Of a DNA stretch of 64,000 nucleotides, positions 17,483-62,396 are shown piece by piece (the stretch's first letter is position 1; each line of letters begins with the position of its first letter). The position numbers and the translations under genes are program-made. The notes under the pieces were generated by a model. That model had not been told where the DNA came from. It worked only from the letters and a program-made list of their open reading frames with translations, and made no database searches. This DNA comes from a virus: the IMG/VR virus record IMGVR_UViG_3300024336_000001, positions 1 through 64,000 of that record; one strand, given 5' to 3'.

Positions 17483-17519
17483 ATAACAAACCCCCACACA
17501 AAAGGATTGAGCCTAAACC

Positions 17520-17636
17520 GGACATAATCCGTTTCACTTTGGACATAATCCGTAAAAAAGTGGACATTTTCCGTTAATAAGTGGCTATAATCCGTAGTGC
17601 TAAAAATAGCTAGGCACGAAATTGGACATAATCCGT
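17520..17636 (+). repeat. Iteron array, five forward copies
   Basis: Consensus GGACATAATCCGT. Copies begin at 17520, 17541, 17562 (GGACATTTTCCGT), 17583 (GGCTATAATCCGT) and 17624. The first four are exactly 21 bp apart and the fifth 41 bp on, so all face the same side of the helix. Such phased direct repeats are typical of iteron plasmid origins or of centromeres. No gene covers them. Confidence 0.85.
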
Positions 17637-17769
17637 AAATATAGCAAAAAACACCAAAAATAAATTTCAAACGAAAAAAATTTTGAAAAAATAAGACGCT
17701 GGAAAAACTTCACCATTATTATAAAGAAGCGAATACGCCAGAGATCATTATAGGAAAACAGCCAGAAAA

Positions 17770-17896
17770 ACGGATTATGTCCGATTTACGCACGAAGTCT
17801 AAAGAAAACTACGCCTTATGCTCAGTTTTTAACGGATAATGTCCAGTAAAATGCGGAAAATGTCCAAAAAACAGCACCTAGATACGGAAAATGTCC
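17770..17896 (-). repeat. Iteron array, four reverse copies
   Basis: The complement of the same 13-mer occurs at 17770-17782, 17832-17844, 17853-17865 and 17884-17896 with small changes (A/T centre). Together with the forward set it flanks a 133-bp AT-rich stretch (17637-17769) that could be the melting region of an origin. Orientation change around an AT-rich core is the notable feature. Confidence 0.8.
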
Positions 17897-17924
17897 AAAT
17901 TAAATAATGAGGGAAAAATAGAAA

Positions 17925-18559: not shown

Positions 18560-18811
18560 AATGAAAATAAATTGTATTATAGGGGCTGAACAAGCGCAAC
18601 CGCTCCACAAGCTCCCCGAGCCCCTGCCCACCAACCCCCAACACCAAGCAATATGTATAATAAAACCTATTATCTATACACAACACGCACAATATATATA
18701 CAAAACAGCCTTATTCTATACATATTCAGCTTATCGGGATTGCCGATAAGTTGCTGATAGTAGTTGTATGGTATTTCCATATAACTGGTAGTAAATTAGG
18801 TAATCCCGAAT
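18560..18811. other. AT-rich intergenic stretch with hairpin
   Basis: No gene is seen. A C-rich strip (about 18600-18645) is followed by AT-rich sequence and a hairpin CTTATCGG-GATTG-CCGATAAG at 18730-18750, whose loop side could also pair with AATCCCGA near 18800. A further small dyad TATGG-TATTT-CCATA lies at about 18767. Confidence 0.5.
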
Positions 18812-19183
18812 TTATTTATCTTTAGTGTGTTTGTCTATGCCAAGCAACAAGTAAGAAGTTTCAATATTATTATGGTATATATCACAATGGGCACAAAAAA
18901 GGTGCTTTACATCATTGCTATTATGGCTAGTCCTCCCACACACAAAGCACGTTATAGTTGAGTTATTATCATTAACAATATAGGTAGGTTGTTCACTATT
19001 GTATAGGTGGAATAGCATTTGTTTAATAGCCTCAATGTAGGCTTTTAGTTGCGCCATATCTAGCAATAAACGCCTAATAATGGCATATAATTCAGGTTGA
19101 CTTTCAGTTGACTTGAGCTTATCTACAGTCTCATGTAGTTGTGTTTCAAGCTCTTTGAGTTTACCGATATGCGACTGAATCAA
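18812..19183 (-). CDS. Coiled-coil protein with C-terminal zinc ribbon
   Basis: A 123-residue protein. The first 60 residues form a coiled coil (KLKELETQLHETVDKLKS) and the C-terminal half carries CFVCGRTSHN and FCAHCDIYHNN, two CxxC pairs that should bind zinc. It overlaps the ORF6N gene by 4 bp (ATGA), so the two are coupled and may work together. Function unknown. Confidence 0.65.
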   Translation of the reverse strand: MIQSHIGKLKELETQLHETVDKLKSTESQPELYAIIRRLLLDMAQLKAYIEAIKQMLFHLYNSEQPTYIVNDNNSTITCFVCGRTSHNSNDVKHLFCAHCDIYHNNIETSYLLLGIDKHTKDK

Positions 19184-19779
19184 TTAAGTTCTTTCATATT
19201 ATTATCAAGCATATCTGATTTTTTTAATACCGTATGTGTGTCTTGAAAGTCATCTAATATTTTAGAAAATCTGTGTACTTCTCTACTTAATTGAAGCGTT
19301 TTATCATTTGATAACTTGCTTTCTACTTTTTGGTTTGCGTCTATAGCTTCAACTTTAGATTCAATATATTTTAGCTTTTGTTTTAGTAATTCGTATTGAG
19401 GCTGCATATATATTTGTTTTCTTAGAGCCACGAATATTTTTATAATCTTGTGGTTAATTTCAATAGCAATTTTGCTGTTTAGCACACTTGATAAAGTCAG
19501 TATGCCGTATTCATTATATACATAAGGAAGGTATTTAATGTTTTTGCCTTGTTTCAAGATTCCATTTTGGCATCTTGAAAGTTGCTCAACTTCGGATGAG
19601 GTTAATTGAAAAACAAAGTCCCCTGGAAATCGGTCAATATTTCTTTTCATTGCCTTGTTTAAATTCCCTGTTTTTACGCCATATAATTGCGCTAAATCAG
19701 AGTCTAGCATGGTTTTAATGCCTCTAAACTCGTAAATTTTTGAAGCAATATTTTCGTGTTCTACTATTGTTAAATCCAT
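19180..19779 (-). CDS. ORF6N-domain protein
   Basis: A 199-residue phage regulator-type protein. Residues about 10-110 match the ORF6N domain found in phage antirepressors: YEFRGIKTMLDSDLAQLYGV, NIDRFPGDFVFQL and KYLPYVYNEYGILTLSSVLN. A helical C-terminal tail follows. AAGGA lies before ATG 19779. A 31-bp palindrome stands upstream and a close relative lies within the gene, which may be its own operators. Confidence 0.85.
   Translation of the reverse strand: MDLTIVEHENIASKIYEFRGIKTMLDSDLAQLYGVKTGNLNKAMKRNIDRFPGDFVFQLTSSEVEQLSRCQNGILKQGKNIKYLPYVYNEYGILTLSSVLNSKIAIEINHKIIKIFVALRKQIYMQPQYELLKQKLKYIESKVEAIDANQKVESKLSNDKTLQLSREVHRFSKILDDFQDTHTVLKKSDMLDNNMKELN
19552..19580. promoter_or_regulatory. 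Internal copy of the ORF6N palindrome
   Basis: TTTCAAGATTCCA (19552-19564) and TGGCATCTTGAAA (19568-19580) pair at 12 of 13 positions. It lies inside the ORF6N coding sequence and shares its arm with the palindrome at 19796-19826. Confidence 0.6.
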
Positions 19780-19795
19780 TGTTTTATATCCTTAT

Positions 19796-19826
19796 ATTTC
19801 AAGATTCCAAATTGGAATCTTGAAAT
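19796..19826. promoter_or_regulatory. 31-bp palindrome before ORF6N gene
   Basis: Perfect 15-bp arms (ATTTCAAGATTCCAA and its complement) around a central A at 19811. It sits between the stop of the gene ending at 19826 and the ORF6N start. There is no T-run behind it on the coding strand, so an operator or RNA processing site is more likely than a terminator. Confidence 0.75.
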
Positions 19827-20026
19827 TAGCTTCCACGCTTTTTTACTATTTTTAACTCGTGCCCGAATTTATCTAAAATATTTTGTAGCTCGCTTACTTT
19901 TAAAGTGTTTTCCCTTAGCTTTGTTCCAAGGGTGTTTTTACTAAAGCCCATATCAAGGGAAATATCTTGCACCTTTTTACCGTGTTTATATATAAGCCCT
20001 ATTAGCTCATCCTTTGTATTTAACAT
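19826..20026 (-). CDS. Small HTH-type regulator, leaderless
   Basis: A 66-residue protein with a helix-turn-helix pattern (VQDISLDMGFSKNTLGTKLR) resembling short phage regulators. A promoter TTGTGA (20061-20056), 17 bp, TATACT (20038-20033) puts the transcript start at or next to ATG 20026 and there is no ribosome site, so translation is probably leaderless. It is the first gene of the unit with ORF6N. Confidence 0.65.
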   Translation of the reverse strand: MLNTKDELIGLIYKHGKKVQDISLDMGFSKNTLGTKLRENTLKVSELQNILDKFGHELKIVKKRGS

Positions 20027-20032
20027 ACTAAA

Positions 20033-20061
20033 AGTATATCAGTTATTAGAGAAAATCACAA
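20033..20061 (-). promoter_or_regulatory. Promoter of the ORF6N unit
   Basis: TTGTGA and TATACT separated by 17 bp, with the -10 box 6 bp before ATG 20026. Confidence 0.55.
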
Positions 20062-20120
20062 TAATTGAGTTGCCAGCACATATAAATAGATAGACAACAC
20101 AAGATACCGATGATTAACAC

Positions 20121-20149
20121 TTGACACAGAAGATGAAACGCTGTAAACT
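20121..20149 (+). promoter_or_regulatory. Promoter of the accessory operon
   Basis: TTGACA (20121-20126), 17 bp, TAAACT (20144-20149). It is the only strong sigma70-type promoter seen ahead of the genes 20558-27234. Confidence 0.65.
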
Positions 20150-20155
20150 GTGGTT

Positions 20156-20557
20156 ATAGCGTTGAGAAAGCGCAGGGATGGCCAGCCCTCAGCACTATAG
20201 AAAAAGTAAAAAATTAATTGATCTTTGAAAATTTGGAAAAATAAAAGCGGTGTGGGAATGACACCTATTAAATAGAAGGTTTAGCACACTGGAAATTTAA
20301 GACACGAAACGGCTTTTTTCTATTGAATGATAATCAATAGTTTATTAACAGAGAGCAGAAAAAGCGGATAAGGATTAGGCACAAGTAAGGTTTAATCAAT
20401 CGGGCTTATTAAGATGCTGAGGCATAAAAAACACTGGCAATCTTGATGCTTAATCCTTAGACGATACCGAACAAAAATCATTAACAAACAGTTTAAAAAC
20501 TAAATTGTTTTTTAATGGTTTTTAGCCATTAATTAAATAACAAATGGAGGGCATTAA
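20156..20557 (+). ncRNA. Long structured 5' leader of the accessory operon
   Basis: About 400 nt without a gene between the promoter and ATG 20558. Hairpins are visible: AACGCT/AGCGTT at the start, CTATTGA-7-TCAATAG (20320-20340), and a 9-bp closing stem TAAGGATTA/TAATCCTTA (20369-20377 with 20451-20459) that encloses 73 nt with inner pairing. AATGG/CCATT lies close to the end. It may be a regulatory leader, an antitermination element or a separate small RNA. Confidence 0.45.
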
Positions 20558-20929
20558 ATGAATAAAGAATTTTTAAATGATATAGAGGGGAGCTTTAAAA
20601 AACAATTTCCCAACTCATATATTGAAACTTGGCATAGCAAAAGATTTAGCGAAACATACAATATACATTTTTCATTAGGTAAGGACAAAACGGAATATTC
20701 ACACGGAATATTTGAAAACGATCCAATGGCACATAAATTACTTGTGTTTTTTCAGGACAACGAAAACAAACCGCTTTCTTTAGAGTCTGGCGGTGGGCTT
20801 TCTGATAAAAATTACAAAACGCTAACAAGAATCAGAAAAAAACAAGGCACGGAAGAGCAGATTTTAAAACACCTTGATAAATATTTTATTGAATTAAAAA
20901 GGTTGGTTATTGAGAACAATATTAAATAA
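20558..20929 (+). CDS. Hypothetical protein, first gene of accessory operon
   Basis: A 123-residue protein with a good GGAGGG ribosome site. It reads ETWHSKRFSETYNIHFSLGK and has mixed alpha/beta character. No family is recognised. Confidence 0.6.
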   Translation: MNKEFLNDIEGSFKKQFPNSYIETWHSKRFSETYNIHFSLGKDKTEYSHGIFENDPMAHKLLVFFQDNENKPLSLESGGGLSDKNYKTLTRIRKKQGTEEQILKHLDKYFIELKRLVIENNIK

Positions 20930-52832: not shown

Positions 52833-55800
52833 CTAAATACTCCCTGAAACTACGGTGACGGACAAAACATCGGTTGCTCCTGATGTTTGCCTTATGTCCA
52901 GATAATTGCCACTATATTGAAGGTCAAAAGGACTACTGCCCGTGCTACTCAAAACAGCTTCATTCCAATATATACCCTTTCCTGAATAAGAATAGGCAAT
53001 AATCGCTGAATGCCCATTTGTGCTTAAATTAGCAAAAACAAGCCCTGATTCTCTTGAACCATTAAAAGCCTTCAGTGTATACCAAACATTGTTTGATGCG
53101 CTTTCAATTCTCTTAGTTGTAAAGTTCCCTCTCCCATATAAAGATAATCGGCTATCATTTTGATATAAATCTAAAAAACCTTCTTGCGTTAAACACATTT
53201 TCTCAGAAATGGCATCTGAGGATCTGGTATAAAATGAAAGATCTCCTGATACACCAGAATCTCGCCGCTTCCCTTTAATCATTGCCGACAAATGGTCATC
53301 GTCAGACTCGTAATTGCTGGTTGTTGTATGAAATCTTAGCTCTGGCCCTGCACCATCCGATGTAGATGAATGTGAAAGTACCAGCAAATTAGCACTAGAG
53401 TCTTTAATAATACATTTTGTATCAATAACTGTAGTGCCTATCCCTACTTGACCATCTCCCGTAAACCTTATTGCCTCTGCCCCACCGGGCTTGAAAATTA
53501 TATGGCCAGTTGAATTCCAGCCTGCTGTAATTGTTAGCTCGTTTGATTGTCCCACTCTTAAAACATCTATTCCGCTGTGATTAATTCCAAACCTATTCCC
53601 AGAGTTGTAATTATTTTCTATTGTTGTTTTATAGGCACTTTCTTCTGTTCCTAAGACTATTTGGGTTGTTGCATGATATTTACTTATTTCAAGGCCGTTA
53701 GTCGCTGCCGGAGCCGTAGTACCAATACCAACTTTCCCATCATTTTTAATTACAAATTTTGTTGAGTGGCTGTCACCTGGTGTATAAAACTGGAAGTCGT
53801 ATGTATTAGAATATGTGTTTGGAATCGCTTTAATCCCCGCCGTAACTGTTCCTGCCATATTTGACTGAAACTTAATCTCACAAGGATAAACATCCAAATT
53901 AGTAGTATTCATATTATGTAACAACAACACAGTTCCAGCCGTGCTATTTGATTTGTATAGTTCTAATAATTGGCTTGGGGAAGATGTGCCAATCCCAACT
54001 CGTCCGCTCGAATTTTCACTCAGTATTTTTCGGCCATCGGTATCACTTGTAGGCGCACTTCCTTTTAGCCTAAGATCCGCATTGTCATCTAACCAAATTC
54101 TATGATTAGCTGTATGGGTGGCTAATCCTAAAGACACTCTCTCTGCATCAGAACCTAACTCAAGATTTATGAAACCACCACCGTTACCTGTCCCGTGCGC
54201 CCAAATGATTCGCTTATCGTCCCCTGTATCCTTTACGTCTAATTTATAAAGAGGGTCCCCATCATCAAGCCCTATGCCAGTATTCCCACTGCTATTGATA
54301 GTTAATCGATGCTCTCCCGCATCACTGTCATAAAAACTTAAAAAACCTCCGCCTATTGTCCAAGAACTATCAGTTGAAATCATGTTGTATTTTCTGCCGC
54401 CGGTCCCGCTCGACCAAACGCCAACCCAGGGAGAAGCTGTCTGGCTAAGAATTGCTCCAGCCACTTCTAATTTTTGACCTGGGTTAGTTGCTCCTATCCC
54501 AACGTTTCCGTCACTTGCTATTCTTATGCGCTCCGCACTATTAACATGAAACACCATATAATCCACAGGTGTGCCACCTGTAAAATGGTAATAGCCTATC
54601 ATTCCTGGAGATCCATCTTTATCGCTAAAATGTATTCTATTTCCAATGCTTGTAGGTGAAGTGGCTGAAGCAAATAAGTTTATTTGCGATGCGTTATATG
54701 CCTCAGCGTGTGTACCTTCTATTGTTAGTGTGGATGTATCTCCATAAGAGCCATATATATGAAGTCTTGTAGAGGGGCTGCTAGTCCCAATCCCAACCTC
54801 TCCCGTAGGAGTAACCGCAAGTTTGCTTACCCCGCCTGTTGTTAAATTTCTTATTTCAAAATTATCACCACTCGCCCCATTAATTCGCATTCCCCAATTA
54901 ATCGCATCATTTCCTATTCCTATGCCTATGATTCCATTAGCTGTGGTCCCATTATGTACATAGAGTGGGTACTGATTATCTGTGGCTACTTCAACATGCA
55001 GCAACTCCGTTGGCTGATCTGTACCTATTCCAACTCGCCCAGTAGCGTTTTTTATTGTAACGGCCCGACTCCAAGCTGTTGAATCGTGTCTCCATAAAGC
55101 TAAATCTGAGTTTGCTTGTAATTGCCATGCCATTTTTTTATTTGAATCAGAGTTATAAAACTCTACCCCTGATACGCCTGTCGAAGAGTTTGTGTTTTCT
55201 AATGTGAGATAAGAATAATCAGCGTGTTTTATATGAAATATTGTACTAGGACTAGATATGCCAATCCCCCATTTCCCATCACTAGTTATCCTTGCCGCTT
55301 CATTGCTCGTAAGTAACCCATTAAGAGAAAAAATAATAGGGATCGCACTTTCTGTTGCCAGCACTAAGCCTGATGTTGACGCTTGCGCTGATACAAAACA
55401 TCGTCCCGTTAAAATTGTGTGTGTAGAGTGCGCTGTTCCTGCCACACCAATGTTACAACCGCCTCCGGTATCATTTAATGTTCCCCAATAAACTAATCCA
55501 GCACTGTTTATGTTTTCAGCCCTTGCTCTCAAGGAGCTTGCTGTTGATTTATAGACGTGAAGCTCATAGTCTGGGTTTGTTGTGCCAAGACCGACATTGC
55601 CACCATTGTAATAGATTTCACTCCCATTAGCAGACCAGTAGGTATCACTTGAGGTTCCCACAGGCACTCCATTAATCGTGATGCTATCAGCCTCGATATT
55701 TCCAACAACTTCAAGCGGGTGTCCTGGTGAAGTTGTACCAATGCCAACATTTCCATTATTTCTTATATATACTTTAGGCGTTGCAGATGATGCGCTATTT

Positions 55801-58800
55801 CCTGGGGCATAAAGTGCAAGGAAATCGTAGTTATTTTCCCACCCTGTTTTAATAACTTTGTTGTAAGCAGCGGTTGGGTTAATGATTGCACTACCATAGT
55901 TGAATCCTATGTCACCCCTAACATCAAGCTTAACAACAGGTGATGCTGTGCCAATACCAACGCTGCCCTCCTCATCTATGGTCATTCTCTTTAAAAGGCC
56001 AGCCGAGTGGTTATATGTCCAAAAATCTAAGGCCGTATGGTTATTGGTCGATGGGTTCAATCTGTATGCGTTTATCCTGGCATAGCCTCCAGCCCAAGTG
56101 ATTCCCCCCATGCTGCTGGGGTTAGATGTTGTCCCCCCTGACCAGCTATAATCGATATTAATCGTGTCATGAACGGCTTCCCCATATTCAAAATAATCTT
56201 TTATATGTAATCGAGTAGACGGAGAACCTGTTCCTATACCAACATCACCTGAAAAATCAATCATAAAGGGAATTTCTGATTTAGATTCGTTTTTTAAATA
56301 AAAATTATCATTGCCTGCGTCCATCCCCAATGTATAAGCGCATTGACCATTTTGGATCAATAAGATTCGACAAGCTTCCCCGTCTTCAGTAGCTATACGA
56401 AGTGGCCCTTGGTTATACCCAACATTAACGGCACTTCCAATATGTAACAAAGCTTCGGGTGTCGTGTTTCCTATGCCTATATTTCCATCACCATCAACAA
56501 CAAAATCAAATCTGGCATCATCATTGTTATAAAGAATAAAGCCCAATCCATCCACACCCAATTTAAAAGAATCTCTGCCCCCGTCCGTAGACTCTATAAA
56601 AAGATAGGTGCTTGAAGAGGAACTTAAGTGTAAAAGACTTTGTGGGTCTGAGACTCCTATTCCAACGTCTCCGGCATTGTAATAAGCTTTTGGTCCATTA
56701 ACTGACCAAACATTAGAGGCTGTTGTTAAATTAGTTTCTGCCCCTGCTGAACTCTTGTAGTATAAAAAACCATCCGAAGCTTTTACATACAGCTTCCCAT
56801 ATCCTGCCGAAACCCCCGGCGGCGTTACCATCTCATCAAATGAAACAGCTCCCTCTACAGTAAGTTTTTCGTTAATGCTGCTTGTACCAACTCCAAAATT
56901 ACCGCTCTTAACATAGCTATCTCCACCTGGATTAAAAGCTATTCGAGCAGTCGCCCCGTCATAAAGATAAAGCTTTATAGCTGAAACGCCATCATACAAT
57001 GAAACAGCTCCGGCATTGGGAGCAAGATGTAAGTTGCCAGCCACGGTTTTTATGGTTGGCGTACCCCCGCCAGACAAAGCAATATTTCCCTCAACACCCA
57101 ATGCTTCACTTGGGATGCTTGTGCCTATCCCGACTCTCCCCTCCCCAGTTATTCTCATTTTTTCGGTTCCCGTGCGTACACTACGATCATCACTGGTGTA
57201 AAAGCGAATATACTTTGTTGTATTATAACTATTCAAACCCCCGCCAATAAATAAATGGTTTTCGACAGAATTAGAGTCAAAAAACAACCCCAGGTAGCCT
57301 TCGGATTCTGCTGCTGAATTATACTGAGAACCAATGATAGCTCCAAATTTTTGAGTATCATTGTCTTCGTTAGAAGATAATCTTAGCTCATAGTTAACAT
57401 GAAAAGTGTCCAGTGGGTTTTCTATTCCTATACCCACCTTGCCATCAGTTCTAAACGTTGCCCAGGTTGAAGCTTTATCGGTAGACCCTATTTTCAATAC
57501 CGAGTCGGTTCTTCCCCAAATAGCACCTGCACTATGAAATATAATCGTAGCCGCATTTGCATCAGACCCGACTCCTGCTGCGGTAATGCGTAAAGTAGCT
57601 CCTCCTGAAACGACTGGGTTTTGTGTTAGCTTCACGGTTTTGTCATCACCGAAAACTTCCAATATTTCATCTGGGCTGGTAGTTCCTATCCCAATTTTTC
57701 CAGTTGGATCTACAGTTAAAGCTCGAATTGGAGCTAAGTTAACTCCTGAGCTTTGGGTTAGAATATTAAAGCGGCTCTCACTTGCCTCAAACCCAAAAAC
57801 ATTTGCATAAGAAGACGTTACAGTTTGAGTTGCGTAGGTAGTTGCATCTCCTAATGTTCCGTTAAGAAATATAAATTGTTTTGCCCCGGAACCAGAGTAA
57901 ACCTGAGCAATATTTACCTGCCTGTTTGTTGCGCCGGTTGGTGAATAACCCCCAATAAACATATAGTGAACTTGATCGTATCCTTCATTTTTAACCATTA
58001 TTCGGCCAGTTTTACACAAGATATTCCCGGATACATCAAGCTTTTCTGTCGGGTTGCTTTCAGCGATACCAACTTTCCCGGTATTAAATCGAAAACCCGT
58101 ATCCGCAGTAAAATCCAAATACCCATCGTTTAAAGATCCGATATGAATAGCTGAATCTCTGAATTTAATCGTATTATTACTTGTTATCGTTCCGCCAGCT
58201 AAAGGAAGAAACCCTGAAATTTGGTGGGTATGGCTTGTCGCTGTCAAAGCATTTGTTGATCCTGTATCACAAGTGCTTGGGGTTCCCATAGTTATAGATC
58301 CTGAGCTTGTGATAGTAGAAAAATCCATCCCGTTTCCGGCAGAAACACTCAAAACTCCATCATCCGGGCTTAAAAGAGACTGCCAATCGGACATAGCCGT
58401 ATTATTGCCAGTTGAATTTATATAGGTTTGGTCTTCGTCTGTCCTTACACAGACATCACCTTTTTGTACTGTTAATGCCAGTTGCGCCGTTTCGTTGGCT
58501 GCTACATACGTTTCCGTAATAGCCAAAGCCGGTAATACAGAATTTTCAAGCTTTCCGCTTCCATTAAGGACAGGGATATTTCCTGATCCGGTTCCTGTGT
58601 CTTTTATGGCCGCTGTGCCTAATCCCAAAGTGCCTCTAGCTGTGCTAACGTTTGCATCATCTAGCAATGTCCTGGCAAAAGAAGATAAGCTCGTTACTGC
58701 ATAGGTATCATACGCCGTTGTATAAATCATTTTATCTGTATCAGTAACCAGATCTGCTATAGAAGCTAGTCCTACATCATAACTTTGGATATCAACATCG

Positions 58801-61800
58801 ATCTCCAAGCCCAAATTATTTCTGGCCGCCTCTGCGCTACTTGCGCCTGTGCCACCATTAACAATTTCAAGGTCTGCTCCACTCCAGTTATTATTGTTAA
58901 TTGTATTTAATGTAGACAGGCTTCCAAAGCCCGCCTCAGTTCTTGTTTGATTAATCCATTTACTAGAGCCAAAATCATATGCAAGCAATTCATTGTCTGC
59001 CGGGGAAGAAATGACCGTATCATCTAAACCGGCTAAGGTTCCTGCTGGCAAGTCACCCCAAGCAACAACACCCAAGCCGTTCGTTTTTAAAACCTGTTCA
59101 TCAGAGCCATCAACTGAAGGTAAAACATATGCCCCTATTTTCACGGATCCATTTACGTGTAATTTTTCTGTTGGGGTATCTATTCCAATTCCTAGTCCGG
59201 TGCTGGTCAATTTCATTCTGGTGCTTGTAAGGCTCTGGTCAGTAAAATAAATATTGATTCCGCCTAAATAGATGTTGTTCGTGTCTGAATAAACAACCGC
59301 ACCTTTTCCGCTTGCAATTCCTAGCCGCACCTTATTTGCTCCTGAGCCAGCCATAACCCTAACAAAAGAATCCGCTGCGCTTGTATCGATATCTAATTTT
59401 TCACTTGGACCTGTTGTCCCAATCCCAACGTTCCCATCCCAGCTTACAGTTAATTGTTTTTGATTAGATGTCATTAAACTTAGATTCGTGGCATTTGCAT
59501 AAGCCGAAGCAGAATAAGCAACCATTCCTCCCATTTTGCTAGACTCTCCTGCGGATCCCTCTGTTGCTAGTTTCAATAAGAAACCAAGCTCTCTTGTGCC
59601 AGAACTACTGCTTGCGCCCCTGTGTCCGATTACAACTGCTTCTGAATATGCGCCTGTACTTGTCCCGGTTGATACCTCCATTTTTGGAGTAACCCCAGCA
59701 AACATACCCGCACTTCCGTTCATTGTCATTGGGTTACTTACACCAATCCCAACCTCTCCTGAACTTAATATTGTCATTCGCTCAACTAAATCAGCATAAA
59801 GATACGTGCCTGCGTTTTGTACCAAAAAGGCAAGGCGAGGGTTTAAAGGACTTGGATTGCTTGCCATTGTAATAAGCCTAAGTTCAGCCGAATACTCTGA
59901 TATTGAAGCTCCTGTGGTATTACTAATATTTATAGATGTGTATTCATTTTGAAGTATTGATTGGCTTTTTACCCGTAACCCAATAGTGTCTTTGTCTGTT
60001 GAAACATCAAGTTTATAATTTGGATTAGTGTCCATAATCCCGACATTGCCACCGCTTAATATTCTCATTGCCTCCAACGCAGTAGCCACATCATTCACAT
60101 AAAACCTTAAAGCATGACTCCCCTTTAACATCTCATTTGCCGGATTAAATATCATATACCTTGAGTTTGTTGTAGCCTCTATCTTTAGGTTAGGGTCGTT
60201 GGCTTTGATATGCAGTAAAGAATCTGGTGTCGATGTTCCAATGCCCATCTCTCCTGAGCTTAATATTGTCATCCGTTCTACAATGTCCGCATATTCGTGT
60301 GTATATTTATTTTGCAGCAAAAAAGCCAAGCGAGGATTAAAAAAATTAGGGCTAGACTCTGTGGTAATCAGCCTTAGCTCGCCTGAATATGACGAAGGGT
60401 TAGAGCTTGAATTGCTTATATTAATCGCCGTGTAATTTCCCGCTATTCCGCAGTTGTTTCTTATTCTAAACGCAATGGTGCTAGGCTCTGACATAATATC
60501 AAATAAATAATAAGGATCAGCCTTTATCCCAAATTTATTATCGACTCTCGTTTGATCGTAATTATGCTTAAGCCTATAGACAAAAGCTCCGCCGGAATTG
60601 GGCGTTGAGCCAATCTGAAACTCGGCTTTATTACTATCAATAGTCTCACTTTTTAATATAAGATTAGGGTTCCCGGTAGCCTGCATTTTAAAATCAATGA
60701 ATGGCGAACTTCCCCTTAATCTTAAGTTTCCCTCAACATCTACTTTTTGTTCTGGTGAAGTAACACCAACACCTAAAGTCCCATCTACAGTAAAACCGCT
60801 ACTATTAAGTTTTGCTCTTTTAATACCTCCTGTCCCAAAAACAATATTTTGGTTCATATCAGCATCAGTGCTATAACCAGACACATCTATATAAGATTGA
60901 TATACAGTATCCAACCCTCCGCCAGCAGAAAGACGTAAAAACCCATCATTTTGTGCTAATGAATTTTCTCTGTAGCCTCTAACTTCGCCATCAATAACGG
61001 TTGTACTTAAAGATGGCCGAGCCATTGCTTCTCCTGTAGAACCTGGTAAAGCAAGTGAATTTGTATAAATCTGTGGTATGGGCTGTGTTTCTTCTCCAAT
61101 TAAATTTCTAAAAAAGGGATCATCTTTTGCATTAAGAAATGATCTTTTGTCCGCAACATTCGTAATATTTGTTGCATCTGTTGTTGCCACACAAATAGGA
61201 TAACAACGGGTCAAAAAGCCAGTAGTGTTTGAAGCTAAGACCCCTGAACCATTGATAAAAACATATGAGGTGGACAACGCAGGCAAGGTTATCGTCTGGT
61301 CATTATGTGAATAAAAGTTGGAACCATAAATAACCCTGCCGTTGTTGACTGTAAGATTTAAAGTTGGCGGTGCAACTACTGATGGTCTGTAATCCTGCGA
61401 AGTAGTAAACGGCTCCGATGTAAAAGAAGCCCGCTCATATTCAATTTTGTATTCGTGTTCAGATACAAAAAAATTCTGTTTATTTTGTTGAGAAGAGGCA
61501 CTGTTAATGTGCTTAATTCCTTCTCCTTGAGGAATGCCCGTATTTTTAATGGTTATATATAAATATCCATTGTAGTAAATCCAAGCCCACTGCTCATTTA
61601 AAATTTCTGCCGAAGTTAATGAAAGCATATTAACCACCGAAGTTAGTGGTTGTATAAAATACAATCTAGGTGAAATTGTTGGAGCTACAGTTGTTTTGAT
61701 TCGAAGCCAATATTTTGTAACAATATTTACTGTGTCAGTTGTAAAATCGCCCGGCAATGTAAATCTAATGCGCCCGGAACGTGTAAAATTTTCAGTGTCA

Positions 61801-62396
61801 TCAACAAGCCCGGAAACGACTTCCCAGGTATCCCCGCCTTTAGAATATTCAATGCTAATATTTAACCCTAAACCAAGTGTTTCAAATTCAAGATCAAGCC
61901 CATTAAAAACAGCATCGCTTCCAATATAAAGAACATCATCTGTCTCGTCTCGCAAAACATCAAAAGGAGTTCCGAATTCACTGGCTGCCTCTGCTGTTTG
62001 ATCGTTATAAGTTGTCCCGTCATAATCTAAAATAGAGTCAAAAGATGTGGCCGCTTCACTTGTAGCTTCACCCCGGTTATCAAGTTCTTTATCGTCAAAA
62101 TAAAGATTATTAACAGTATTAACTTTAAAATCAGAAATCGGATATTTCCATATAGAATATCCGGCCTCTGCCTTCAGATGTGCCCAATTAGTAAACGTAG
62201 ACACATCATTGCCAAGCTTAATGTCACGTTTCCATTGCCGATCCAAACCCAGGTCCACAAAGATCTGATCCATTTCATTTTGATTGAATTTGGCCTCTTT
62301 GATCTTGCCGTCAAGCTTAAGGTCGTTATCAACCAAAGCTTTCACGGCCTGTTCTTGAGGTATCCTAGTATTAATTATTTGTATGTCTGAACTCAT
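52833..62396 (-). CDS. Giant tail-fibre protein with about 25 GIGTxxP repeats
   Basis: A 3187-residue receptor-binding or tail-fibre protein. The first 60 residues are a charged helical attachment region; beta-rich parts follow. About 25 units of the VGIGTTSPxxxLHV type repeat along the length, the usual trimeric-fibre pattern. Near the middle, the ATSHTHQISGFLPLAGGTI segment is a common fibre motif. The C-terminus (ending SGATDVLSVTVVSGSI) shows no peptidase S74 chaperone, so its trimerisation must use something else. GAGGGA before ATG 62396. Confidence 0.9.
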   Translation of the reverse strand: MSSDIQIINTRIPQEQAVKALVDNDLKLDGKIKEAKFNQNEMDQIFVDLGLDRQWKRDIKLGNDVSTFTNWAHLKAEAGYSIWKYPISDFKVNTVNNLYFDDKELDNRGEATSEAATSFDSILDYDGTTYNDQTAEAASEFGTPFDVLRDETDDVLYIGSDAVFNGLDLEFETLGLGLNISIEYSKGGDTWEVVSGLVDDTENFTRSGRIRFTLPGDFTTDTVNIVTKYWLRIKTTVAPTISPRLYFIQPLTSVVNMLSLTSAEILNEQWAWIYYNGYLYITIKNTGIPQGEGIKHINSASSQQNKQNFFVSEHEYKIEYERASFTSEPFTTSQDYRPSVVAPPTLNLTVNNGRVIYGSNFYSHNDQTITLPALSTSYVFINGSGVLASNTTGFLTRCYPICVATTDATNITNVADKRSFLNAKDDPFFRNLIGEETQPIPQIYTNSLALPGSTGEAMARPSLSTTVIDGEVRGYRENSLAQNDGFLRLSAGGGLDTVYQSYIDVSGYSTDADMNQNIVFGTGGIKRAKLNSSGFTVDGTLGVGVTSPEQKVDVEGNLRLRGSSPFIDFKMQATGNPNLILKSETIDSNKAEFQIGSTPNSGGAFVYRLKHNYDQTRVDNKFGIKADPYYLFDIMSEPSTIAFRIRNNCGIAGNYTAINISNSSSNPSSYSGELRLITTESSPNFFNPRLAFLLQNKYTHEYADIVERMTILSSGEMGIGTSTPDSLLHIKANDPNLKIEATTNSRYMIFNPANEMLKGSHALRFYVNDVATALEAMRILSGGNVGIMDTNPNYKLDVSTDKDTIGLRVKSQSILQNEYTSINISNTTGASISEYSAELRLITMASNPSPLNPRLAFLVQNAGTYLYADLVERMTILSSGEVGIGVSNPMTMNGSAGMFAGVTPKMEVSTGTSTGAYSEAVVIGHRGASSSSGTRELGFLLKLATEGSAGESSKMGGMVAYSASAYANATNLSLMTSNQKQLTVSWDGNVGIGTTGPSEKLDIDTSAADSFVRVMAGSGANKVRLGIASGKGAVVYSDTNNIYLGGINIYFTDQSLTSTRMKLTSTGLGIGIDTPTEKLHVNGSVKIGAYVLPSVDGSDEQVLKTNGLGVVAWGDLPAGTLAGLDDTVISSPADNELLAYDFGSSKWINQTRTEAGFGSLSTLNTINNNNWSGADLEIVNGGTGASSAEAARNNLGLEIDVDIQSYDVGLASIADLVTDTDKMIYTTAYDTYAVTSLSSFARTLLDDANVSTARGTLGLGTAAIKDTGTGSGNIPVLNGSGKLENSVLPALAITETYVAANETAQLALTVQKGDVCVRTDEDQTYINSTGNNTAMSDWQSLLSPDDGVLSVSAGNGMDFSTITSSGSITMGTPSTCDTGSTNALTATSHTHQISGFLPLAGGTITSNNTIKFRDSAIHIGSLNDGYLDFTADTGFRFNTGKVGIAESNPTEKLDVSGNILCKTGRIMVKNEGYDQVHYMFIGGYSPTGATNRQVNIAQVYSGSGAKQFIFLNGTLGDATTYATQTVTSSYANVFGFEASESRFNILTQSSGVNLAPIRALTVDPTGKIGIGTTSPDEILEVFGDDKTVKLTQNPVVSGGATLRITAAGVGSDANAATIIFHSAGAIWGRTDSVLKIGSTDKASTWATFRTDGKVGIGIENPLDTFHVNYELRLSSNEDNDTQKFGAIIGSQYNSAAESEGYLGLFFDSNSVENHLFIGGGLNSYNTTKYIRFYTSDDRSVRTGTEKMRITGEGRVGIGTSIPSEALGVEGNIALSGGGTPTIKTVAGNLHLAPNAGAVSLYDGVSAIKLYLYDGATARIAFNPGGDSYVKSGNFGVGTSSINEKLTVEGAVSFDEMVTPPGVSAGYGKLYVKASDGFLYYKSSAGAETNLTTASNVWSVNGPKAYYNAGDVGIGVSDPQSLLHLSSSSSTYLFIESTDGGRDSFKLGVDGLGFILYNNDDARFDFVVDGDGNIGIGNTTPEALLHIGSAVNVGYNQGPLRIATEDGEACRILLIQNGQCAYTLGMDAGNDNFYLKNESKSEIPFMIDFSGDVGIGTGSPSTRLHIKDYFEYGEAVHDTINIDYSWSGGTTSNPSSMGGITWAGGYARINAYRLNPSTNNHTALDFWTYNHSAGLLKRMTIDEEGSVGIGTASPVVKLDVRGDIGFNYGSAIINPTAAYNKVIKTGWENNYDFLALYAPGNSASSATPKVYIRNNGNVGIGTTSPGHPLEVVGNIEADSITINGVPVGTSSDTYWSANGSEIYYNGGNVGLGTTNPDYELHVYKSTASSLRARAENINSAGLVYWGTLNDTGGGCNIGVAGTAHSTHTILTGRCFVSAQASTSGLVLATESAIPIIFSLNGLLTSNEAARITSDGKWGIGISSPSTIFHIKHADYSYLTLENTNSSTGVSGVEFYNSDSNKKMAWQLQANSDLALWRHDSTAWSRAVTIKNATGRVGIGTDQPTELLHVEVATDNQYPLYVHNGTTANGIIGIGIGNDAINWGMRINGASGDNFEIRNLTTGGVSKLAVTPTGEVGIGTSSPSTRLHIYGSYGDTSTLTIEGTHAEAYNASQINLFASATSPTSIGNRIHFSDKDGSPGMIGYYHFTGGTPVDYMVFHVNSAERIRIASDGNVGIGATNPGQKLEVAGAILSQTASPWVGVWSSGTGGRKYNMISTDSSWTIGGGFLSFYDSDAGEHRLTINSSGNTGIGLDDGDPLYKLDVKDTGDDKRIIWAHGTGNGGGFINLELGSDAERVSLGLATHTANHRIWLDDNADLRLKGSAPTSDTDGRKILSENSSGRVGIGTSSPSQLLELYKSNSTAGTVLLLHNMNTTNLDVYPCEIKFQSNMAGTVTAGIKAIPNTYSNTYDFQFYTPGDSHSTKFVIKNDGKVGIGTTAPAATNGLEISKYHATTQIVLGTEESAYKTTIENNYNSGNRFGINHSGIDVLRVGQSNELTITAGWNSTGHIIFKPGGAEAIRFTGDGQVGIGTTVIDTKCIIKDSSANLLVLSHSSTSDGAGPELRFHTTTSNYESDDDHLSAMIKGKRRDSGVSGDLSFYTRSSDAISEKMCLTQEGFLDLYQNDSRLSLYGRGNFTTKRIESASNNVWYTLKAFNGSRESGLVFANLSTNGHSAIIAYSYSGKGIYWNEAVLSSTGSSPFDLQYSGNYLDIRQTSGATDVLSVTVVSGSI

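Follow-up and report, generated by a model that had tools for sequence, protein, structure and literature searches.

Genes of three related families of mobile-DNA regulators, ORF6N, a Bro-N subtype and RhuM (PF10543, PF02498 and PF13310), contain a palindrome within the codons of their own DNA-binding domain, and the sequence of this palindrome co-varies with the recognition helix encoded 15–34 codons upstream in all three families. These may well be self-addressed genes, in which the codons of the recognition loop are the target of the protein that they encode. An earlier note on a single viral locus had described a pair of palindromes, one of them inside an ORF6N gene. That observation is correct and bigger than its reader supposed: the internal palindrome is not peculiar to one gene but family-wide in ORF6N and present in two related families.

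Two matching palindromes at a viral ORF6N locus

The window is a 64,000-nucleotide stretch of viral DNA, positions 1 to 64,000 of IMG/VR record IMGVR_UViG_3300024336_000001 (Table 1). By profile, its ORF6N gene is an ordinary member of the family, with PF10543 spanning residues 13–99 of the protein (97.2 bits, against a curated cut-off of 27.8) and the anti-repressor family phrog_4792 as the top PHROG match (E 2.5e-27). The upstream palindrome is as perfect as had been claimed, with two 15-nt arms (19796–19810 and 19812–19826) around one base; it sits in the gap that separates the stop of a 66-aa ORF from the ORF6N start codon, just 5′ of the start region. The second copy is real and absent from shuffles, and the minus-strand reading of its coordinates gives residues ~67–76 (SRCQNGILK) of the ORF6N protein. 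The placement of one copy in the gap and one in the gene is borne out by the coordinates, and the separation, previously put at 244 bp, is 245 nt centre to centre. The two palindromes are identical at 25 of 27 positions in the better orientation, and a 35-nt repeat (19552–19586 versus 19797–19831) has 86% identity. With up to 3 mismatches allowed, the 29-nt palindrome occurs at 2 places in the window versus 0.00 expected (100 dinucleotide shuffles), and at just the same 2 places in the whole 88,849-base virus record. Among viral contigs, the exact 29-nt pattern had zero matches and a single-protein search with the window gene found no close relatives. A promoter and terminator scan of 19400–20560 returned 7 promoter-like sites, about equal to the shuffle mean of 5.0 (sd 2.0).

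Table 1 Features of the ORF6N locus in the window
Feature	Position	Strand	Remarks
ORF6N-domain gene, 199 aa	19180–19779	-	PF10543, E 7e-28
Internal palindrome, centre 19566, 11/13 arm pairs	19552–19580		Within the ORF6N gene
Upstream palindrome, centre 19811, 13/13 pairs, perfect 15-nt arms	19796–19826
Recognition-helix codons (predicted), residues 37–46, TGNLNKAMKR	19642–19671	-	AlphaFold2 helix
Loop/wing codons, residues 67–80	19540–19581	-	Low-confidence loop (AlphaFold2); overlap the internal palindrome
66-aa ORF directly upstream (the HTH protein of the earlier note)	19826–20026	-	Stop abuts the upstream palindrome
123-aa ORF	18812–19183	-	TTG start overlapping the ORF6N gene end; Pfam match sub-cut-off only

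Elsewhere in the window, a cluster of GGACATAATCCGT-type repeats (17511–17904) within a stretch poor in genes, in both direct and inverted orientation and with arms of up to 61 nt, looks like iterons or an origin or partition region. One 3187-aa ORF occupies 52833–62396 on the minus strand.

The palindrome in ORF6N, Bro-N and RhuM genes

At 64 bacterial loci found with the window protein, nearly all ORF6N genes have their palindrome at a shared codon position directly downstream of the helix-turn-helix (HTH), with varying sequence. Across 125 unique genes (from 176 domain rows, 153 of them with an aligned Q column), the best 13-pair palindrome within 150 nt has its centre exactly at a single codon position in 107; a further 8 have it at +1 or +4. 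Genes of the +1 group have the same palindromic core in a different reading frame; in L122, which encodes an intact 170-aa ORF6N protein, the palindrome is read as EVVTNCDHL in place of RSQIVT, and the alignment with the window protein (37% identity) is continuous through the palindrome site. The earlier note had named conservation of the internal copy in relatives as the point on which its observation would stand or fall, and the copy is conserved: in the set that includes viral and plasmid loci, restricted to unique genes with 330 nt of upstream sequence, at least 10 of the 13 pairs are present in 119 of 125 genes, and at least 11 in 105. Among viral genes alone the figure is 33 of 38 with 10 or more pairs (42 loci, reduced to 38 unique genes that align at this position; 2 hits do not). 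The ORF6N palindromes share a near-fixed core. In 100 genomes from the phylum of a Treponema record, the core pattern GGTNNCAAWTTGNNACC is present in 16. ORF6N was found in 20 of the 100 genomes, and 14 of the 16 belong to these; a further one, G251, has the Bro-N relative. Palindrome presence thus tracks the gene. A Parabacteroides distasonis plasmid record (L192:1913–3646) carries three tandem ORF6N genes 588 nt apart, the first two with 12/13-pair palindromes of differing cores.

A RhuM gene identified by PF13310 (E 4.6e-109) also showed a palindrome. When the best-scoring centre no more than 24 nt from the aligned codon is used, a choice that raises the scores somewhat, 10 or more of 13 pairs were found in 25 of 29 unique RhuM genes (31 loci; L236 repeats L273, and L272 is without an aligned position) and, at one common codon, in all 21 unique genes of a Bro-N subtype (PF02498, E 1.3e-11). 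We take the C-terminus of this subtype to be DinD-like; plain DinD-type Bro-N genes have no loop palindrome. A PF02498 search covering 30 loci yielded 15 Bro-N genes with 10 or more pairs at the loop, 14 without, and 1 (L236) that is RhuM. Gene sets came from sequence or profile searches, except that the first Bro-N examples were met through the palindrome pattern, as solo sites. Palindrome sequences differ strongly among the three families, and all lie at the corresponding place, between the recognition helix and the wing strand and close behind the helix. KilA-N (PF04383) is a further family of the same network; its 21 loci had zero core-type palindromes, and any palindrome of 11 or more pairs in the examined stretch was found in 2 of them.

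RhuM genes adjoin restriction-modification genes at three loci (L261, L263 and L264), and a Bro-N gene of Arcobacter (L199) is flanked by cas4 and cas1; these would be stand-alone regulators within defence operons. In E. coli M-17, a lone rhuM (L334:1322–2506) lies directly after tRNA-Sec, between yicJ and yicL, and thousands of E. coli genomes have short rhuM-like matches, perhaps as remnants at a single site. The C-terminal part of one Bro-N subtype protein (L141, P0001 residues 138–251) weakly matches the Deinococcus DNA-damage protein DdrC in sequence (E 0.011); fold comparison of the ORF6N model also brought up DdrC.

The palindrome is not explained by the peptide, because recoding 107 main-frame ORF6N genes (score 8 or more, no stops nearby) with their own codon usage gave 6.7 of 13 pairs versus 12.1 observed; the excess over the recoded peptide had p<0.05 in 105 of the 107. 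In 57 diverse ORF6N sequences (of 74 listed windows; the 17 omitted mostly had another reading frame or a shifted centre), 89.5% of cells pair, versus 30–46% when slid. Double-change cells numbered 154 versus 46.8 shuffled in these sequences and 99 versus 32.8 in RhuM (24 of 29 windows), and at standard pairs in ORF6N the 154 both-sided changes compare with 12 one-sided ones. The palindrome is maintained by both-arm changes and across reading frames. If it is the target of the protein encoded by its own gene, the peptide motifs RSQ.VT, VTNCDHL and VTNCNQL would be by-products of DNA symmetry and not of protein function.

A second palindrome, 17–124 nt before the domain start in a promoter or ribosome-site position, accompanies about one ORF6N gene in six. 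Palindromes of 11 or more pairs between −150 and +10 of the domain start were found in 21 of 125 genes versus 4 of 125 in the preceding interval (viral subset, 11/32 versus 1/32), and a separate Hamming search of an overlapping set found an upstream copy in 10 of 88 genes versus 2/88 and 0/87 in controls. Thirteen of the 21 match their own internal copy at 20 or more of 27 positions and 8 do not; the matches (L085, 27/27; L080 and L204, 25 each, as in the window) include unusual cores, the spacing between upstream and internal copies is 222–331 bp, and the upstream palindromes are closer to the internal copy of their own gene than to internal copies from the rest of the set (permutation p 1e-4). 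Binding of both copies by one regulator, as proposed for the window, would fit these patterns well. A promoter operator is not general, because 104 of the 125 ORF6N genes are without a clear upstream palindrome and the other two families are without an own copy there (RhuM, 1/29 versus 2/29 in the control interval; Bro-N subtype, none found).

Palindrome sequence and recognition helix

The weightiest sequence evidence on what reads the palindrome is co-variation: with the other segments controlled, palindrome distance was associated with recognition-helix distance in Bro-N (partial r 0.555, p 0.001), RhuM (0.275, p 0.001; 31/32 genes) and ORF6N (0.213, p 0.001), with p-values that are approximate in that the sequences are related and relatedness was removed only in part. 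The middle and C-terminal segments of ORF6N showed no association with palindrome distance (‘mid’ segment, r 0.03), nor did the RhuM segment before the HTH (−0.14). Counter-signals were also present, however: the segment before the helix in ORF6N (partial r 0.175, p 0.001), the C-terminal segment in Bro-N (0.28, p 0.009) and the segment after the wing in RhuM (0.36, p 0.001) were likewise associated. Column by column (29 RhuM, 20 Bro-N and 89 ORF6N genes), the best positions outside the palindrome codons were adjacent wing residues and helix positions 15–34 codons away, including V75, R79 and K74 in Bro-N, E54 and D48 in RhuM, and K42, G38 and N39 in ORF6N; the last three are residues of the window helix. 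Pairings in Bro-N can be picked out by eye: YWSDLK or YWNDLK with CGA or CGC cores, YW.VLK with TACAA, YWNKLK with GACAA and YWKYLK with TAG.

For the window protein, AlphaFold2 (mean pLDDT 73.9) gives a winged-HTH model whose recognition helix spans residues 37–46, and the palindrome-coded residues form a low-confidence loop ahead of the strand at 79–82. Fold comparison matched the model to 4ux5 (PCG2–DNA, Z 4.6) and 1bm8 (Mbp1, Z 4.5), both weak (Z under 7); Foldseek gave no match against the PDB at E 0.001, and the ORF6N alignment found no relative among solved structures. The likeness to the APSES winged helix of MBP1/PCG2 is of a similar fold, through a weak and fold-only match. In PCG2, according to the accessible part of its description, helix B and the wing read DNA, with the wing as a main recognition element (PMC4333399); its target is MCB DNA, and that part contains no report of a target inside the PCG2 gene.

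A comparison of two E. coli rhuM alleles, L332 and L333 (1035 nt), shows 2 differing sites ahead of nt 128, 87 within 128–329 and 39 beyond. The dense block holds both the recognition helix and the palindrome, which differ between the alleles, and the pair does look like the product of an exchanged segment containing the two. The M-17 rhuM, overall far more diverged, has the helix and palindrome of L332 and of a Vibrio gene.

Alternative readings and probable autogenous regulation

An exchanged segment of this kind could point to a site of recombination or conversion that diversifies or shuffles these genes, and the earlier note had suggested recombination between the two copies that swaps the segment between them. 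Individual genes are consistent with such a process: L043 and L005 have two different palindromes each and are chimeras, L159 has a duplicated piece between palindromes, and four truncated ORF6N genes (L109, L112, L131 and L108) retain the palindrome, with homology ending there or shortly beyond. Integrases lie near some plasmid loci. Yet 82 ORF6N proteins show no general mosaicism at the palindrome: distance correlations across it (0.35–0.59) are not below those within the two sides (0.32 and 0.45); left and right distances agree as well across the palindrome as within sides, so exchange there is no general force, and the proposed swapping is unsupported as a general process. Shufflon-like breakpoints at the site were not found, single chimeras apart. 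The exchanged rhuM segment is not flanked by two palindromes, and recombination does not predict a separate helix signal that skips the intervening residues, as it does in the ORF6N middle segment. We regard this explanation as decidedly unlikely. An RNA hairpin in the mRNA, acting on translation or stability either alone or bound by a protein, is unlikely too, despite the good folding of the window copies as RNA (−12.1 kcal/mol, z −3.4, and −17.2 kcal/mol, z −7.9) and the position of the upstream copy just before the start codon. Sense-strand mismatches of G-U versus A-C type number 11 versus 16 in the 57 ORF6N sequences and 6 versus 4 in the 24 RhuM sequences, and G-T mismatches no commoner than A-C argue against mRNA structure. 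In most genes the symmetry reaches to 1–3 bases from the centre, although an RNA loop would not require it there; Rfam had zero matches up to E 1 over 18800–20560, and a hairpin does not predict co-variation with a DNA recognition helix.

The same co-variation bears on whether self-complementarity alone matters, as cruciform or hairpin DNA or through template-switch correction of quasi-palindromes, with no sequence-specific binder. The great excess of both-sided over one-sided changes and the wide variation of palindrome sequences among genes are what this would produce, and template-switch correction may be a source of the double changes; but helix co-variation, the near-fixed ORF6N core and the matched upstream copies require a reader of sequence, and self-complementarity by itself is very unlikely to suffice. 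That this reader is another protein, such as the 66-aa HTH product of the window, is highly improbable: its ORF adjoins the upstream site, but Pfam and PHROG searches gave it no match, and the helix that co-varies with a palindrome is the one encoded by the palindrome’s own gene.

We favour a different reading on the combined sequence patterns: the palindrome is quite probably a duplex DNA site for the protein of its own gene, and a subset of genes has in addition a promoter-proximal copy for autoregulation. The palindromes, their maintenance by paired changes, their shifts of reading frame, the helix co-variation and the likeness of upstream to internal copies are observed; binding by the encoded protein, autoregulation and looping are the steps that we infer. 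ORF6N, the Bro-N subtype and RhuM are winged-HTH proteins of mobile DNA whose genes have a 27–31-nt palindrome in the codons of an exposed loop (the wing); the palindrome would be read by the protein’s own recognition helix, presumably as a dimer. When specificity shifts, helix and palindrome would alter jointly, and gene and target would co-evolve. Two features of intragenic-operator autoregulators were found here, a palindromic site conserved as DNA within coding sequence and a second, matching site close to the promoter. Because this pair resembles that of a repressor with promoter and intragenic operators, the foremost interpretation is autogenous repression, possibly through looping: occupancy of the upstream and internal copies, 222–331 bp apart, would most likely repress the gene. 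In genes without an upstream copy, internal binding might serve as a roadblock, as gene marking or in self-recognition on mobile DNA. A caveat to the own-target reading is that the internal copy of the window is imperfect, at 11 of 13 pairs.

Classical intragenic operators, such as lac O2 in lacZ and gal OI in galE, combine a promoter-proximal site with one in coding sequence, and looping between them is possible. The window locus likewise has a promoter-proximal and a coding-region site. In lac and gal, however, the internal site is a local trait of a regulated gene, whereas the palindrome described here is part of the codons for the regulator’s own DNA-binding domain, in three families, and its upstream partner is optional. 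Autoregulatory toxin-antitoxin and restriction-modification controllers are small DNA-binding proteins of mobile DNA with palindromic sites at their own promoters; their operators stand at promoters, unlike the ORF6N-type palindrome in the codons of the recogniser. PHROG matches are called anti-repressors, and the embedded palindrome is a feature added here. The literature matches listed, from outside the subscription journals, contain no description of an embedded palindrome in ORF6N, Bro-N, RhuM or KilA-N genes; in the accessible parts of ORF6N literature that also mentions palindromes, the term belongs to CRISPR wording and a gene table only, and those of PMC8263062 and PMC10111431 contain nothing on a gene-embedded palindrome.

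One short DNA segment would hold both recogniser and site, and specificity could thus evolve or transfer horizontally in one step. If the own-target reading is true, these genes represent a new way for a protein and its DNA target to remain linked through horizontal transfer. They would also constitute a large natural table pairing winged-helix recognition helices with cognate sites, from which the targets of poorly characterised regulators (‘antirepressors’, RhuM and Bro-N) could be read gene by gene. The specificity of such regulators would be immediately testable, and a recognition code for a winged-helix fold would come within reach.
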